A DNA stretch of 64,000 nucleotides. It comes from Desulfovibrio legallii. GTDB lineage: Bacteria; Desulfobacterota; Desulfovibrionia; Desulfovibrionales; Desulfovibrionaceae. Below the pieces are notes generated by a model, which was not told where the DNA came from, ran no database searches, and saw only the letters and a list, made by a program, of their open reading frames with translations. Below, one piece after another: positions 16,034 to 61,405 of the stretch. The DNA is taken from contig NZ_SIXC01000001.1 in the NCBI RefSeq assembly GCF_004309735.1, positions 149,346 through 213,345 on the forward strand, written 5' to 3'. Both the position numbers and the translations under genes were made by a program. Within the stretch, counting starts at the first letter, position 1. The number at the start of each line of letters is the position of its first letter.

Positions 16034-16263
16034 GTCACGCCAATAAACTGGCCTGTGCGGTGCAGGCTCTGCCGTGTTCTGTGTGCGCCAGCCGTGGAAT
16101 TGCAAAAAAAAAGCATAGTAAAGGGGGCGTGAAGGGACGGGAACTTTTGGCCAGCCTCGCCCGTTACGGCAAAGGATGGTATGGGCAACGGCAGCAGCGC
16201 CCTAAAAGTTCTTTCCCTGAGAAAAACGCGCCCTTCATTTTGTCTGTCGCCTGTGGAGGCTGC

Positions 16264-21163: not shown

Positions 21164-21290
21164 TAGAGCAGTTTACGAATGAAATGAGTTAATTGCTCTG
21201 CAAGGATTTTCTTGAAAATCCTTGCCACGAAATGCGAGAAGGCAGGCTTTGCCTGCCGTAAGCGAGCATTTCAAGTGTTTAAATATTCTA
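21164..21290 (+). repeat. Family A repeat, copy 1 (MITE-like)
   Basis: Nearly identical to 29712-29837. The element starts GAGCAGTTTACG and ends with an imperfect inverted copy of its first 21 bases (about 15 of 21 match in copy 2), with TA on both sides. Inside are three hairpins: AGAGCA/TGCTCT, GCAAGGATTTT/AAAATCCTTGC (21200-21225, 11 bp, 4-nt loop) and GGCAGGC/GCCTGCC (21241-21257). Confidence 0.85.
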
Positions 21291-21300
21291 GAGAAGATTG

Positions 21301-21326
21301 CCTTTGAGAATGTGTATTCTCAAAGG
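21301..21326 (+). other. 11-bp hairpin between family A and family B repeats
   Basis: CCTTTGAGAAT (21301-21311) and ATTCTCAAAGG (21316-21326) form a perfect stem with a GTGT loop. Confidence 0.6.
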
Positions 21327-21521
21327 TTACGGCACGCTCGTTCCGGCGCTTACCCGAGCAAATACATAGCGCTGCTGTCTTTGCCCGTAACTTCCTTTGT
21401 TGTAATGGGCCAAGCTCCTGCGTCGCACAACGGCTGCAGCTACGCTTGCGCGCCACGGCGGGCAGGCGGCGGTCGTCTGCTTACGCAACCGCCAGAGCAT
21501 GTTAACGTTGCAATGCCGCGA
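21327..21521 (+). repeat. Family B repeat, copy 1
   Basis: Shares with three other places the order TTACGGCACGCTCGTT, GCGCAAATA-like, CTGCTGTCTTTGCCCGTAAC, CGGCTGCAGCTACGCTTGCG, GTCTGCTTACRCAA and AACGTTGCAATGC. It directly follows family A copy 1. The 150 bases after it, up to the end of engB, hold nothing I recognise. Confidence 0.8.
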
Positions 21522-32798: not shown

Positions 32799-33614
32799 TC
32801 AAAGCCCCACACTGCGCCGCAGGGCTTCCACCTCGCGGCTGGTCAGAGCTCTGGCCACACCGGCGGGCAGATCTCCCAAGGCCAGAGGCCCTTGGGCCAC
32901 GCGGCACAAACGCAGGATAGTCAGAGCCAGGTCGCGGCACATGCGGCGGATCTGTCGGTTGAGCCCTTGGTGCAGCACCATGCGCAGCAACGTACCCCTG
33001 GCCTGAGGCACAGCCGATACCGTCACCGGGGCGAGCTGTTCCCCTTCGGCCAGGCGCATGCCCGCGCGCATGGCTTCCAGAGCTGCGGGCGGCACCGCGC
33101 CGCGCACCAGCACCTCATAGGTCTTGGGCTGGTGGTGGCTGGGGTGACACAGCCGCTGGGCCAGCGCGCCGTCATTGGTCAGCAGCAGCAATCCTTCAGA
33201 GAAATAGTCCAAGCGGCCCACCGGGTAGAGCCGCAGCTCGCGCAAAGCCTCAGGCAGGCAATCCAGCACGGTGGGTCGCCCTTCGGGGTCGTGCGCCGTG
33301 CAGACAACCCGCACGGGTTTGTGCAGCAGCACATAGGCGTAACTCTGGGGGGCCGCCAAGGGGCTTCCGTCCACGGCCAGCACATCCTGCGGCCTCACCT
33401 GACGGCCGGGGCTGGGTTCCGGCAGACCGTTGACAGAAACCCGGCCCGCCAGAATAAGCTCGTCCGCCTTGCGCCGGGAGCACAGACCACTGGCCGCAAT
33501 GGCCTTGTTCAGCCGCTGAGTTGCGGGCGCGTCCGGCCCGGTCATTTCTGCCTGTGCGGCCGTAGCGCCGACTCGTGTGCGCGCCGTGCGCTGCTGGTGC
33601 CCCTTCCCGTTCAT
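32799..33614 (-). CDS. rluB: RluB/RsuA-family rRNA pseudouridine synthase
   Basis: 271 aa. An N-terminal S4 RNA-binding domain (QRLNKAIAASGLCSRRKADELI) is followed by the catalytic GRLDYFSEGLLLLTND motif, whose Asp is the nucleophile, and LHQGLNRQIRRM near the C-terminus. It makes pseudouridine in 23S (RluB) or 16S (RsuA) rRNA; the exact site is not certain. ATG 33614 has AGGAG 8 nt upstream. The open frame up to 33767 is family B repeat sequence, not protein. Confidence 0.88.
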   Translation of the reverse strand: MNGKGHQQRTARTRVGATAAQAEMTGPDAPATQRLNKAIAASGLCSRRKADELILAGRVSVNGLPEPSPGRQVRPQDVLAVDGSPLAAPQSYAYVLLHKPVRVVCTAHDPEGRPTVLDCLPEALRELRLYPVGRLDYFSEGLLLLTNDGALAQRLCHPSHHQPKTYEVLVRGAVPPAALEAMRAGMRLAEGEQLAPVTVSAVPQARGTLLRMVLHQGLNRQIRRMCRDLALTILRLCRVAQGPLALGDLPAGVARALTSREVEALRRSVGL

Positions 33615-33627
33615 GTCCCAATCTCCT

Positions 33628-33667
33628 GAAAAAATACCCCAGGGCATTGCAACGTTGGAATGCCCTG
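33628..33667 (-). terminator. Terminator-like hairpin at the rluB leader (end of family B copy 2)
   Basis: On the minus strand CAGGGCATT (33667-33659) and AATGCCCTG (33648-33640) form a 9-bp stem with a 10-nt loop, then GGGTA and TTTTTT (33634-33629). The T-run runs directly into the rluB ribosome binding site. Confidence 0.6.
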
Positions 33668-33849
33668 ACGGTTGTGTAAGCAGACGCCCGCCGCGGAGGC
33701 GCCAGCGTAGCTTCAGCCGTTGCGCCGCGGGAGCCTGGCCCGTTACGACGAAAAAAGTTACGGGCAAAGACAGCAGTAGGGCTAGTTACAGATGAAGCAG
33801 CGCCGCCCTTTATTTGCGCGGTTACGTGCCGAAACGAGCGTGCCGTAAA
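33637..33849 (-). repeat. Family B repeat, copy 2
   Basis: Read on the minus strand it starts TTACGGCACGCTCGTT, contains CTGCTGTCTTTGCCCGTAAC (33776-33757), the GCCCGT/ACGGGC pair, and GTCTGCTTACACAACC, and ends in the CAGGGCATT hairpin. It is the longest and best kept of the four copies. Confidence 0.85.
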
Positions 33850-33869
33850 TTTCTTAATGTTACTATACG

Positions 33870-33886
33870 TTAAAGAAATACTTTAA
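33870..33886. promoter_or_regulatory. Palindrome TTAAAG-N5-CTTTAA
   Basis: TTAAAG, AAATA, CTTTAA in an AT-rich island that stands out from the GC-rich surroundings. The same palindrome with the same spacing is found at 37919-37935 upstream of recN. Confidence 0.5.
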
Positions 33887-46002: not shown

Positions 46003-46096
46003 GGAGGCGTTTCGTCACCGGTGTGGCGCCCGGTCTTCAAAACCGGTGGCAGGCTTTACGGTCTGCGGTAGGTTCGACCCCTATGCGCCTCCGCCA
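46003..46096 (+). tRNA. selC: tRNA-Sec (anticodon TCA)
   Basis: 94 bases including an encoded CCA. The 8-bp acceptor stem pairs GGAGGCGT with GCGCCTCC (one G-T), the anticodon stem CCGGT/ACCGG encloses CTTCAAA with anticodon TCA at 46037-46039, the long variable arm follows, and the T-loop is GGTTCGACCCC. The layout matches E. coli selC. It decodes in-frame UGA as selenocysteine together with SelB and a SECIS element; selA, selB and selD are not in this window. Confidence 0.93.
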
Positions 46097-56000: not shown

Positions 56001-56438
56001 GCTCGCGCGGCCCTGGAATACGGCCTGCGCCAGTACGCCCTGCCCGTGCCCCAGGACGCGGGCTTTCGGGAGGAGCTTGCCGCCTCTCTGGCCTGGCTGG
56101 CAGCGCAACCGCAGGCTGCGAGCTGGCTTGCGCACGGTCTGCCGGAGCATTCTCTGCTGGACGGCCAGGGCAACCTGCTGCGTGTGGACCTGCTGGTGCC
56201 CGAAGCCTGGGGCAGCCTGGTCCTCGACTACAAAAGCGGTCAGGCCAGGGAAGAGCACGTGGCGCAGGTGCGCACCTATCTGCGCTGTCTGCACGCGCCG
56301 GGGACAACAAGCCGGGAAGCGCGCGCGCTGCTGGTCTATCTGGATCTGCGCCGCTTCCGCCTGGTCACGGATACGGTCGTTTCCCCTTTGCAGGAACACT
56401 GCGACGGCCTGTTGCCCCCGGAGGATGCCTTGGCATGA
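53025..56438 (+). CDS. addA: AddA/RecB-like UvrD-family helicase-nuclease
   Basis: 1137 aa. Walker A KASAGSGKTFELT (14-26), motif Ia AVTFTNAAAAEM, motif II VDEFQDTS, motif III GDVKQSIYGWRGGDPD, motif IV LPHNWRS, motif V MTIHKSKGLEAPV and motif VI LLYVAFTRARDALY are all intact. A low-complexity linker (about 860-945) precedes a RecB-type nuclease with GTLLHACLERL, VDLLVP and LDYKSGQ (about 1067). It unwinds and resects broken DNA ends with AddB, encoded next with an ATGA overlap. Confidence 0.92.
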   Translation: MDVRPRSRQLRQIKASAGSGKTFELTRCFLQHVVACGAPAPATGVCALSAAGPTGWGDVLAVTFTNAAAAEMRERVVRQLKNAALGHPPEGLPLAADEAGRWVTAIMRDMGALQIRTIDSLLHSIVRAAALDLGLHPEFQPVFASEEALTPYLDLLLEEARRQNPAMLELLRQVCHALVWHGNSRGFLAGEKILGQLRPFMDKALLGELEDVSPPAALEQRWTTLLLAARSAGQALLEAAEAASLTWKKQAYAAVESMAAGTVKDSAFFKKPEAADLFTKHQTVPAAVAASFTRCAAAAGTWLEEAPLLQLGLRYAPAVELARTLAEAFRSNQAEEGHLPGLLIPHLAADLLRAEHGVPDALCRLGARLTHFLVDEFQDTSAEQWRALRPLVLEALSRGGSLTWVGDVKQSIYGWRGGDPDLFDAVLGDASLTALVPEGERVTLPHNWRSRREVVQHNNLLFTPLENRETALRVLTALLPGTSPTEGLPQAAAKLAQAFAGAAQQSPPQGKPGGLVQVDVLEAENVEALTAATLERLGNLLEEDIGPTRPWSDVLVLVRSNRMAAIVADTLLGRGIPVITENSLRLAGHPLVAQTAALLSFLDNPEDDIAFLTVVTGVLFHDHPEAAPLAEEDLHGWCAGGPRGGPLYRLFRQRWPQVWQALLEPFFNQSGLMTPYDLTQEWFSRLEAARRFPEAEAFLRRFMEVLHSAEEKGLSTLPTFLEHWRDKGDAERVPMPEQMDAVRIMTIHKSKGLEAPVVVVPWTDFRLRVHPDPRTVTLGGLRYVVGNARALNAPYFAELVRQARECLHLLYVAFTRARDALYVFRGAPVGGQKSACDALDVLWEAAGLQPPYTLGALPEPLVDAPVAAQTDMTTADVAPTAGGYAQATASSPTSDSEADAVDHRPRAGAGAKDGPAMDRFAAGKGPSVPAAQPAASHSADPDAAPWRPMQWLPRLKIYRNPLAGMAFRAEDRGTLLHACLERLRPTGQPEADARAALEYGLRQYALPVPQDAGFREELAASLAWLAAQPQAASWLAHGLPEHSLLDGQGNLLRVDLLVPEAWGSLVLDYKSGQAREEHVAQVRTYLRCLHAPGTTSREARALLVYLDLRRFRLVTDTVVSPLQEHCDGLLPPEDALA

Positions 56439-59400
56439 GCGGCGCGCCCTTTCTGGTTTTTCCCTGGCAACATCCCTTTTTGGCGGACCTCAAGGCCCAC
56501 CTGGACCGGCTCTGCGGCGATATGCCTGGCCAGGCCCTGGTGGTGGTGCCCCACCACCGGCCCTGGCGCTACCTGGCGCGGCTTTATGCGGCTTCCGGCC
56601 ATGTGGGGCCCCTGCCGCGCGTTCTGCCCCTCACGGATCTGACGGCCCAATGGCGGGCGCGCCTGGCTCAGGCCCCTTTGTACACGGCGGGCGACCTGGA
56701 CCGTGTGGCGGCATTGCAGCAGGCTGTGGCTGCCGTTGCCCAGGAAGACAGCGCCCTGGCCGCGCGCTTCGCCCATATGGACGTAGGCCGCTTTTTGCCC
56801 TGGGGCCTGCGCCTGGCCCAGGTTTTTGAAGACATGTTCCAGCAGCAGGTGGCGGCCGTGGATCTGACCCACATGGAGCAGGAGGTGGCCGCACCGGCTG
56901 CGGCCCTGCTGGGCGCACTGGGGCGCATCGGCAAGGCCTATGCGGCGGAACTGCGGGCCAGAGGCTGGACTACGCCGGGCCTGGATACGGCCAGCGTGGC
57001 TGCAGACGCCACAGACATCCCGGTCCTGTTCCGCCCCACAGAACGCCGCCCCGTACTGCTTGCGGGCTTTTCTCTGCTGACGCGCGGGGAGGAAGCCGTG
57101 CTGCGGCGGCTGTGGGAGGCCGGGGCGCAGGTCTGCCTGCACGCGGACCCGGCCCTGGCGCAAGGGGGCACGCCCCACTGGTCCTGTGAGCCTCTGGCTG
57201 CCTGGATCCGCCGCTGGCGCGCCACGGCCCTTCCGGCAACGCCGCGTTTTGCCGCACAGAATTTGCCGCAGGCCGCTGATCAGGACACGGCCTGTCCGTC
57301 CCCGCGCCCGGACTATCATTTTTTTGCCGGGTACGACCTGCATTCACAACTTAAAGAACTGCGTGAAGTTTTAACAAACGCGCCGGACCCGCCCCCCAGT
57401 CCGGAGCAGGCTGTTGCCACAGACGCCGCCACGGCCGTGGTACTGACGGACAGCGCCCTGCTTATGCCGGTGCTGCACCACTTGCCGCACAAGGATGTGA
57501 ACGTCTCCATGGGCTATCCGCTGGAGCGCTCCCCCCTCTACCACTTGCTGGATGCCCTGCTGCGCCTGCAGGAAACCCGCGATGCGGATGGCCGCTACTA
57601 CTGGCGAGCCCTGCTGCGGTGTCTGCGCCACCCCTACCTTAATCTGCTGCGCGCCGCCCCCCGCACGCCGCAAGCTGGCCCTGACGCCGCTGTCGGGGGC
57701 GATGGCGCTCCTGTGGCGGTCGCGGGGCCGCCCCTGCGCGAGGCCCTGCGCCGTCTGGAGCACCACATCCGCACGGGCGCGCGCTTTGTGGACTTGTCTG
57801 CCATAGTCCCGGCCTGCGCCGCCGAGATCCCCGCAGATCAGGCGGCTCTGCTGCACGAAACCCTGACCCTGTGCACCACAGGCTTCGGCACGGCTACCAC
57901 TCTGGAAGACACCGCCCGCGGTCTGTTGCGGATCTGTGACTTTCTGCTGCTGCACGGCGGGGACATCTGGCGGCGCTTTCCGCTGGACGCCGAAGCCCTC
58001 TACCGCCTGAGCCGTCATGTGGCCCCGCGGCTGCGCGACAATTGCCTGGCGCAGACCCCCTTGCAGCCTGCAGTGTTGCACGCGGTACTGCGTGGCATGC
58101 TGGAGCAGGAGCGCGTGCCCTTTGAGGCTGAACCGCTCACGGGCCTGCAGGTCTTGGGCATGCTGGAAACCCGCCTGCTGCACTTTGACCGTGTGCTCAT
58201 TGTGGACGCCACGGACGACAAGCTGCCGGGCGCGCCCGCCCCGGACCCGCTGCTGCCCGATGCCCTGCGCCGCGTGTTGGGCCTGCCCGACGCCCGTGGG
58301 CGCGAAAAGGCCGCCGCCTATACCCTTTACCGCCTTTGCGCCGGGGCGCGGGAAGTACGTTTTTTCTGGCAGGAGGGCATCACCCGCTCCGAACTTTTTG
58401 ATGGGAAGAAAAGTCGCAGCCGTTTTGTGGAACAACTGCTTTGGGAGGAGGAGCAAAGTCGGGGGGCCCTGCTCGAACCCGGCCAGGGGCCGCTCACGGC
58501 GGCCCGCTGCACCCTGCGCGCCTTTGCCGCGCACCCCCAAAGCCTGCCACGTCAGGGCGGGCTGGATACGGCTTTGAGGCGACTTTTACGCCGTCCCCTT
58601 TCCGCCACTCTGTTGGACGTCTATCTGGAATGTCCCTTGCGCTTTGTCCGCCAGTATCTTTGCGCCCTGGAACCACCGCAGGAGGTCAACGAGGGCGACG
58701 ACCCGGCTGCGGTGGGCATTTGCGTTCATGAAACCCTGCGCGCGCTGTATGCCCCGTACCTGCAGCGCAGCGTCCGGCGCAGCGCTTTGGGCCCCGCCGC
58801 CGTACAGGCCGCCTTTGTTCAGGCTCTCGCCTCTTCCGGGCTGGAAGCGCAACTGCCGCCGGACAGTCTGCTTATTCTTAAGGAAGCCGTGCCCATGCGG
58901 CTGCAGCGCTTTCTGGACAACCAGCCCGAAACCACCCTGATCGACGCTCTGGAAACGCCTCTGGACGCCACTTTACGCCTGGCCGGGGCCGACTATGCCT
59001 TTAAGGGCGTCTGCGACCGTCTGGACCGACGGGACGGCCTGCTCCATGTGCTGGACTACAAGACCGGCCGCATCAAACTGCCAGATGGCGACCTATGGAC
59101 AGACGTACGCTTTTTCCGTCAGGCCGGGCAGCTTTGTGACCGCCTGAATGGCCAGACCGGCGAAGCCGCCTCCCCTGCGGAAGCCCTGGAGGATCTGGAC
59201 GCCCTGTTCTGCCGACTTTGCGAGCGGCTCCGCAGCCTGCAGCTGCCCGTCTATCTGCTCATGGCCCAGGCCGCGGGCCTGGGCCCCCTTGGCGACGCGG
59301 CCCTGGTGGACCTTGGCGACACGGGCCGGGAGGCCCCCCTGTTCGGCGGCCTTGTGGGTGAGGACGTGCAGGCCGCCCTGGGCTACTGCCGCACGGCCCT

Positions 59401-59500
59401 GGAGCTCACTCTCCTGCACCTGACGCGCGCCCCGCACTTTGCGGCCCGGCCCGACAAGCACTGTCGCTACTGCCCTTACGCAGGCCTCTGCACCGTTTAG
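56435..59500 (+). CDS. addB: AddB-like nuclease subunit with Fe-S cluster motif
   Basis: 1021 aa. The N-terminus (FLVFPWQHPFLADL) lacks a Walker A, so the helicase-like part is likely inactive. C-terminal PD-(D/E)XK nuclease: GICVHETLRAL, GVCDRLDRRDG and LDYKTGR (about 873). Four cysteines match the AddB iron-sulphur staple: C in YLECPLRF (about 733) and C1010, C1013, C1019 in CRYCPYAGLC. Order and partner gene support an AddAB-type complex over RecBCD; no recD is adjacent. Confidence 0.88.
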   Translation: MSGAPFLVFPWQHPFLADLKAHLDRLCGDMPGQALVVVPHHRPWRYLARLYAASGHVGPLPRVLPLTDLTAQWRARLAQAPLYTAGDLDRVAALQQAVAAVAQEDSALAARFAHMDVGRFLPWGLRLAQVFEDMFQQQVAAVDLTHMEQEVAAPAAALLGALGRIGKAYAAELRARGWTTPGLDTASVAADATDIPVLFRPTERRPVLLAGFSLLTRGEEAVLRRLWEAGAQVCLHADPALAQGGTPHWSCEPLAAWIRRWRATALPATPRFAAQNLPQAADQDTACPSPRPDYHFFAGYDLHSQLKELREVLTNAPDPPPSPEQAVATDAATAVVLTDSALLMPVLHHLPHKDVNVSMGYPLERSPLYHLLDALLRLQETRDADGRYYWRALLRCLRHPYLNLLRAAPRTPQAGPDAAVGGDGAPVAVAGPPLREALRRLEHHIRTGARFVDLSAIVPACAAEIPADQAALLHETLTLCTTGFGTATTLEDTARGLLRICDFLLLHGGDIWRRFPLDAEALYRLSRHVAPRLRDNCLAQTPLQPAVLHAVLRGMLEQERVPFEAEPLTGLQVLGMLETRLLHFDRVLIVDATDDKLPGAPAPDPLLPDALRRVLGLPDARGREKAAAYTLYRLCAGAREVRFFWQEGITRSELFDGKKSRSRFVEQLLWEEEQSRGALLEPGQGPLTAARCTLRAFAAHPQSLPRQGGLDTALRRLLRRPLSATLLDVYLECPLRFVRQYLCALEPPQEVNEGDDPAAVGICVHETLRALYAPYLQRSVRRSALGPAAVQAAFVQALASSGLEAQLPPDSLLILKEAVPMRLQRFLDNQPETTLIDALETPLDATLRLAGADYAFKGVCDRLDRRDGLLHVLDYKTGRIKLPDGDLWTDVRFFRQAGQLCDRLNGQTGEAASPAEALEDLDALFCRLCERLRSLQLPVYLLMAQAAGLGPLGDAALVDLGDTGREAPLFGGLVGEDVQAALGYCRTALELTLLHLTRAPHFAARPDKHCRYCPYAGLCTV

Positions 59501-59523
59501 ATAAGAAAATGTATTTTTAACAG

Positions 59524-59711
59524 CTACGGCATGCCCGTTGCGTCGCTTACCCGCGCAAATACAGAGGCTGTGCTGTCTGTATCTGTAGCCAGCGCTGCTG
59601 TCTTTGCCCGTAACTTTCCGCGTCGTTACGGCTGCAGCTACGCTTGCGCCTCCACAGCGGACGTCTGCTTACACAAGCGCCAGGGCCCTGTAACGTTGCA
59701 ATGCTCTGGCC
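59524..59711 (+). repeat. Family B repeat, copy 3
   Basis: Carries TACGGCATGCCCGTT, GCGCAAATACAGA, the core GCTGCTGTCTTTGCCCGTAAC (59594-59614), CGGCTGCAGCTACGCTTGCG, GTCTGCTTACACAA and AACGTTGCAATGC. The end forms a CCAGGGC/GCTCTGG hairpin with wobbles. The following 200 bases contain only the promoter at 59914. Confidence 0.8.
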
Positions 59712-61326: not shown

Positions 61327-61405
61327 CTGACGTTGCTCCGTAACCAGCGCTGCTGTCTTTGCCCGTAACGTCCTTCGTCGCAAACGGGCCAATAAGGAGC
61401 AAACG
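61327..61405 (+). repeat. Family B repeat, copy 4 (partial, divergent)
   Basis: The core GCGCTGCTGTCTTTGCCCGTAAC (61348-61369) and the GCCCGT/ACGGGC pair are kept; the flanks have diverged. The sequence from here to 61575 holds no gene. Confidence 0.6.

Follow-up and report, generated by a model that had tools for sequence, protein, structure and literature searches.

The stretch of DNA analyzed here (64 kb, referred to as the window) carries a structured intergenic repeat, repeat B, one copy of which lies in the leader region of an rluB-type gene. Paired base changes among four proposed copies had been read as a sign of RNA structure, and the question that this locus raises is whether repeat B is a new regulatory RNA or an element of another kind. 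Our analysis points to a non-autonomous miniature transposable element (MITE) of the genus Desulfovibrio, a reading to which we assign a probability of about 0.86. Repeat B has features by which MITEs are recognized, being short, non-coding, dispersed in many copies, and bounded by precise ends with terminal inverted repeats. Among gene-less mobile elements of this well-known type it represents a new family, as opposed to a new regulatory RNA.

Copy number and distribution of repeat B

The original prediction held that the copies share an ordered set of sequence blocks, which was borne out by alignment. The three long copies in the window are collinear over their whole length, and the copy at 33.6 kb matches tens of other loci in its own genome, with a best E value of 4e-49 (self excluded). 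Given the full-length ordered alignment and these matches, repeat B is real and beyond chance. The elements are longer than first given (Table 1). The supposed fourth copy is the internal CTGCTGTCTTTGCCCGTAAC...ACGGGC module alone, with neither end, and is not a full copy; a second solo internal module, on the minus strand, had been missed. Copy 1 directly follows an element of another repeat, family A, with which it has its left TA in common, and the right end of copy 2 lies ∼25 bp ahead of the rluB start codon. Elsewhere in the window, a tRNA-Sec gene (46003-46092, 78 bits) marks the organism as one that makes selenoproteins.

Table 1. Copies and modules of repeat B in the window, with the adjoining genes
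Feature	Position	Strand	Basis or remark
Copy 1, long form, 231 bp	21290..21520	+	covariance model, 89.6 bits, E 2e-25
Copy 1, 5' terminal palindrome GCCTTTGAGAATGTGTATTCTCAAAGGT	21300..21327	+	helix 1; two-sided changes across copies in 12/12 pairs
Copy 2 (the assigned copy), long form, 5' hairpin degenerate	33640..33885	-	alignment, covariance model
Copy 2, 3' terminal palindrome CAGGGCATTCCAACGTTGCAATGCCCTG	33641..33666	-	helix 5
Copy 2, internal variable module(s), including imperfect hairpin CTGCTGTCTTTGCCCGTAAC...GTAACGGGCC	33706..33801	-	module number varies among genomic copies
Copy 3, long form, internal module shortened	59487..59708	+	covariance model
Solo internal module, no ends	61337..61392 (approx.)	+	search with repeat queries
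Second solo internal module	16153..16201	-	search with repeat queries
rluB-type pseudouridine synthase (S4 + PseudoU_synth_2)	32799..33614	-	leader region holds copy 2
PD-(D/E)XK nuclease gene	56435..59500	+	TAG end inside the left end of copy 3

Searches of the 2.68-Mb genome with whole, 5', 3', and middle queries found at least 76 (76-78) copies or fragments of repeat B, a count that is a lower bound. With a covariance model of the 148-bp core, 25 of the 61 Desulfovibrio genomes searched gave matches, at no fewer than 51 places in many of these, and many of the 61 gave none. The distribution within the genus is patchy and amplified, and repeat B is a high-copy repeat in many Desulfovibrio genomes. 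The mean identity among sampled copies was 0.91 in the relative G068, 0.84 in G017, and 0.79 in the own genome; since the latter copies are only ∼79% identical on average, activity here is old.

That this is a dispersed, structured, non-coding intergenic family outside the described ones had been proposed at the outset, and it agrees with our searches. No Rfam family matched at its gathering score within the repeat over the 64-kb window, and nothing convincing for repeat B appeared at an E value of 0.1. The phage and plasmid collections gave no match to the repeat, and a literature search that covered few subscription journals returned no paper on a Desulfovibrio MITE. Across Rfam, these collections, and the Desulfovibrio literature searched, we found no described family with the sequence of repeat B.

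Anatomy of the element and its insertion target

Repeat B occurs as a 148-bp core and in long forms of ∼194, 218, 240, and up to 293 bp. The core begins with AGAGCAGATTACC and follows the order TA[GAGCAG, 5' palindrome, GCGC stem, GGCGG stem, 3' palindrome, TGCYC]TA. It contains two 12-bp palindromes, the second of which ends in TGCCCTA, and a near-perfect palindrome stands at either end of the element. In the long forms the middle is extended by further copies of an imperfect-hairpin module (CTGCTGTCTTTGCCCGTAAC-loop-GTAACGGGCC or CTTCATCCGTAGC-loop-GCAACGGCTGAAG). Across genomic copies the number of these modules runs from zero to several, which makes the family modular in the manner of the pneumococcal BOX element. 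The pairing of GCCCGT with ACGGGC that was said to persist with a wobble in copy 1 can indeed be read there (ATGGGC). Because the internal module also occurs solo in other species, the repeat B family is a mosaic. As a separate observation, the internal hairpin module alone, sometimes in tandem, forms a small repeat family of its own in species without a detected two-ended element (e.g., G006:C1:1882177-1882280), and at G017:C4:156976 the loop of a 3' terminal palindrome has received an internal-type hairpin module.

Neither the ends nor the target site nor the copy number had been recognized in the original prediction. At the ends of 86 copies we found a terminal inverted repeat, GAGCA / TGC[TC]C, which is short and weak, with a fainter likeness continuing inward. 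The left flank of these copies reads Y (93%), T (88%), and then A directly before GAGCA; on the right, TGC[TC]C is followed by T (84%), A, and a base that is R in 89%. Sequence outside this YTAR context is near random. Repeat B inserts at the TA of YTAR sites and has a TA to its left and to its right, an arrangement which suggests that TA is duplicated upon insertion.

Traces of mobility

Several arrangements are those of an element that has moved. Two 149-nt copies in G017 are 100% identical, and their flanks share no 10-mers. Tandem copies with a common end dinucleotide are present in the own genome (G000:C7:157627) and in G078:C4. At G000:C1:68864-69202, also in the own genome, a family-A element interrupts a copy of repeat B at GC-TA-GC; the nested element has the same ends as repeat B, TA[GAGCA...TGCTC]TA, and the nesting fits a TA duplication. 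Family A itself is present in the window at 21164-21289 and from 29711 onwards, as a unit of ∼127 bp of the form TA[GAGCAGTTTACG...TTAAATGCTC]TA with a hairpin at each end. Its window copies are identical at 87/87 bases, its ends and target are as in repeat B, and it often abuts copies of the latter. We take family A to be a probable second MITE of this system, one with more recent activity.

Orthologous sites without the element were found for two of the window copies. The rluB leader of ∼10 relatives is short and free of the element, with a decayed trace only in the closest relative; in these ∼10 relatives the leader carries a conserved TGTCCCATAATGATAATTATGTAAACTTTTG motif, in place of which the own genome has the 33.6-kb copy. 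The TGTCCCATAATGATAATTATGTAAACTTTTG motif upstream of rluB is palindromic and resembles an operator; it was not seen in the own genome. Likewise, the gap between the nuclease gene and a nitronate monooxygenase gene holds no element in the named relatives with that gene order, and nuclease orthologues without the element end at about the same residue. This lack of conserved sites between species argues against a competing explanation, namely a structured RNA family (a cis-acting 3'-UTR stabilizer, processing site, or terminator) under selection at gene ends.

Placement relative to genes

All copies had been described as lying at gene edges, and this holds genome-wide. With genes called by a simple home-made codon-usage gene finder, none of 78 pieces reaches more than 14 bp into a predicted gene, in DNA that is 88% coding across the window. 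Convergent gaps contain 31/71 pieces and divergent gaps 2/71. A stop codon coincides exactly with an end of the element in 23 of the 66 full copies (35%), as compared to 15% of non-coding YTAR sites drawn from the stretches around the copies (p = 3e-5); in the window, the nuclease gene upstream of copy 3 has its TAG stop within the left end of that copy. In tandem gaps, the orientation of the element relative to the adjacent genes is unbiased (22:16).

Enrichment at 3' ends and in convergent gaps is what a structured RNA would show as well, but TA targeting combined with purging would yield the same enrichment, and the 22:16 orientation is not that of an RNA read from one strand. Under the MITE reading, copies that land in genes or in divergent promoter gaps would be purged. 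The base next to TA is G at both ends of the element. An insertion at the TA of a stop codon, be it TAA or TAG, therefore yields TAG again, which makes gene ends tolerated landing sites. Such stop-codon-rebuilding ends provide a simple, testable account of the build-up of the element at gene ends, as has been noted for BOX.

A second layer, added to the MITE reading, would be that the host has recruited some copies as two-way mRNA 3' ends or as cleavage sites for RNase III. The abutment to stop codons, the enrichment in convergent gaps, and hairpins that are stable on both strands would fit such a role, and ERIC and Correia transcripts show RNase-related effects (PMC2229807, PMC3049150). Depletion in genes and promoters accounts for the placement, and we regard co-option as unlikely.

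Covariation in the terminal palindromes

The original prediction rested its case for RNA on compensatory changes among the window copies. The four window copies alone do not demonstrate covariation. The change in the terminal CAGGGC/GCTCTG hairpin of copy 3, described as two-sided, is one-sided (G-C to G-T), and in copy 1 this hairpin is broken (CAGAGC/GCCGCG). Covariation does emerge from 85 distinct copies of several species. In an alignment of 93 distinct copies, two-sided changes occur at 29 of the 42 pairs as compared to 15 in shuffles, with 12/12 pairs in the 5' palindrome, 10/12 in the 3' palindrome, and few elsewhere. Because the structure guided the alignment, these counts are biased toward it, but they stand well apart from those of shuffled and slid controls. 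A home-made R-scape-like test gave eight pairs at E<0.05, four of them in the structure and all four within the terminal palindromes. The power comes from other species, one pair passing this test (E=0.03) with own-genome copies alone. RNAalifold on the full gapped alignment was uninformative because of the variable middle.

If the paired changes reflected RNA, the terminal hairpins should tolerate G-T mismatches over A-C mismatches on one strand. The two classes are balanced, at 28:25 and 23:30 in the two terminal palindromes (pooled 51:55, p=0.77), a balance that fits a DNA palindrome, or both strands, being what matters and not one RNA. In the inner helices A-C is more frequent than G-T overall, which is further evidence against an element-strand RNA, with the caveat that these cells are not independent. 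The terminal hairpins fold far more strongly than shuffles (z ∼ -5) and they covary, both of which are consistent with structured RNA; the folding energy of the whole copy, against this, is ordinary (z -0.67). Neither hairpin is followed by a U-tract, and scans for terminators were at chance level, on which grounds an intrinsic terminator was rejected. Taken together, the step from paired changes to RNA is not supported, given the clustering of these changes in the terminal palindromes, the mismatch balance, the unbiased orientation, the transposon-like ends, the TA target, the nested and tandem insertions, and the lineage-specific occurrence of the element. Structured RNA as the main explanation was rejected on strand symmetry, orientation, and the lack of conserved sites, and we consider it quite improbable.

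A further possibility joins the two themes. It has a genus-wide MITE remake TAG by landing at the TA of stop codons and put a stable two-way hairpin directly downstream, with the host using many copies as mRNA 3' ends, so that covariation arises because RNA matters on both strands. We consider this version distinctly unlikely. For the MITE itself, we favor recognition of both arms by a transposase, or correction of the palindrome during replication, over RNA as the source of the paired changes, which would then reflect events at the DNA level. Repeat B offers a clear example of compensatory changes, usually counted as evidence for RNA, that accompany a mobile DNA element and have no strand preference.

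Search for the mobilizing transposase

A transposase acting in trans probably mobilized repeat B, cutting and pasting it with duplication of the TA. The enzyme would be a TA-targeting DDE transposase, either IS630/Tc1-mariner like that of ISY100 or of the IS5-type group, and would by now be gone from the own genome or else belong to another family than those searched. The IS5-type group includes members with TA targets. MITEs commonly lose their partner transposase, and a matching transposase supports membership but is not required for it.

The own genome has no match to Y1_Tnp, DDE_Tnp_1, DDE_3, or DUF4096, and PF13358 (DDE_3) is likewise without a match in G017, G068, G078, G079, and G082. 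At the PF01609/PF13340 loci inspected in relatives, no IS has ends matching those of repeat B (e.g., CCTGTTAACACTA in G079 and GTCACGAGAT in G068). IS5-type (PF01609/PF13340) and IS630 (PF13358) partners were accordingly set aside, being absent from the own genome and, where inspected in relatives, different in their ends. In G079, we also observed an IS5-type IS (terminal inverted repeat CCTGTTAACACTA) between two solo 28-bp palindromes, TA[GAGCATT..]TA and TA[GGGCATTCC..]TA, the whole spanning 879 bp. Either the IS has landed in the TA that separates two solo hairpins, or the arrangement points toward the autonomous partner.

A REP/BIME or IS200/IS605-derived palindromic element, mobilized in single-stranded form by a Y1 (HUH) transposase, would also account for hairpins at both ends, and the imperfect hairpins of the internal modules resemble REPs in that their mismatches and loop are conserved. 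The ends of Y1 elements are asymmetric and their insertion does not duplicate the target; repeat B, unlike them, has GAGCA and TA at both ends. With PF01797 (Y1_Tnp) unmatched in the own genome, REP/RAYT and IS200/IS605 were rejected, and an origin of this kind is highly improbable.

Comparison with known systems

The kinds of element closest to repeat B are BOX, RUP, ERIC, and Correia. ERIC/RU-1 of enterobacteria and Correia/NEMIS of Neisseria have TA termini, a terminal inverted repeat (7 bp in ERIC), a target site duplication, and a stem-loop (PMC2229807). TA at the termini, the terminal inverted repeat, and the stem-loop structure are their likeness to repeat B, for which no sequence relation is claimed. 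Neither ERIC/RU-1 nor Correia/NEMIS is known to have a modular internal array. RUP of S. pneumoniae is a 107-bp intergenic MITE at TA with a short terminal inverted repeat, for which IS630-Spn1 has been proposed as the mover (PMC2229807); an IS with matching terminal inverted repeats is thus known for RUP, whereas none was found for repeat B. ISY100 (IS630/Tc1-mariner) has a TA target with TA duplication (PMC2170065), and the title of a reference cited in that paper states that IS630 prefers TA in CTAG. IS630/Tc1-mariner differs from the present case in that the own genome and several copy-rich relatives have no DDE_3 transposase.

BrickBuilt of Porphyromonas gingivalis is a MITE with a leader and a tail around an internal tandem array (PMC4596501). 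Its array is a 23-nt minisatellite and it has 19 copies in one species, whereas repeat B has hairpin modules, at least 76 places, and many host species. BOX of Streptococcus pneumoniae, with the organization boxA-(boxB)n-boxC, supplies the stop codon in 36 annotated genes (PMC3049150). Like repeat B, it consists of two end modules around variable internal hairpin modules and is intergenic, dispersed, and enriched in convergent gaps (PMC3049150). It differs in belonging to another phylum, and in repeat B the bare 148-bp two-end form is common across species and the YTAR/TA target is clear. The likeness is one of architecture and carries no claim of sequence relation or membership; among the systems compared, BOX comes nearest to repeat B in architecture and in the supply of stop codons.
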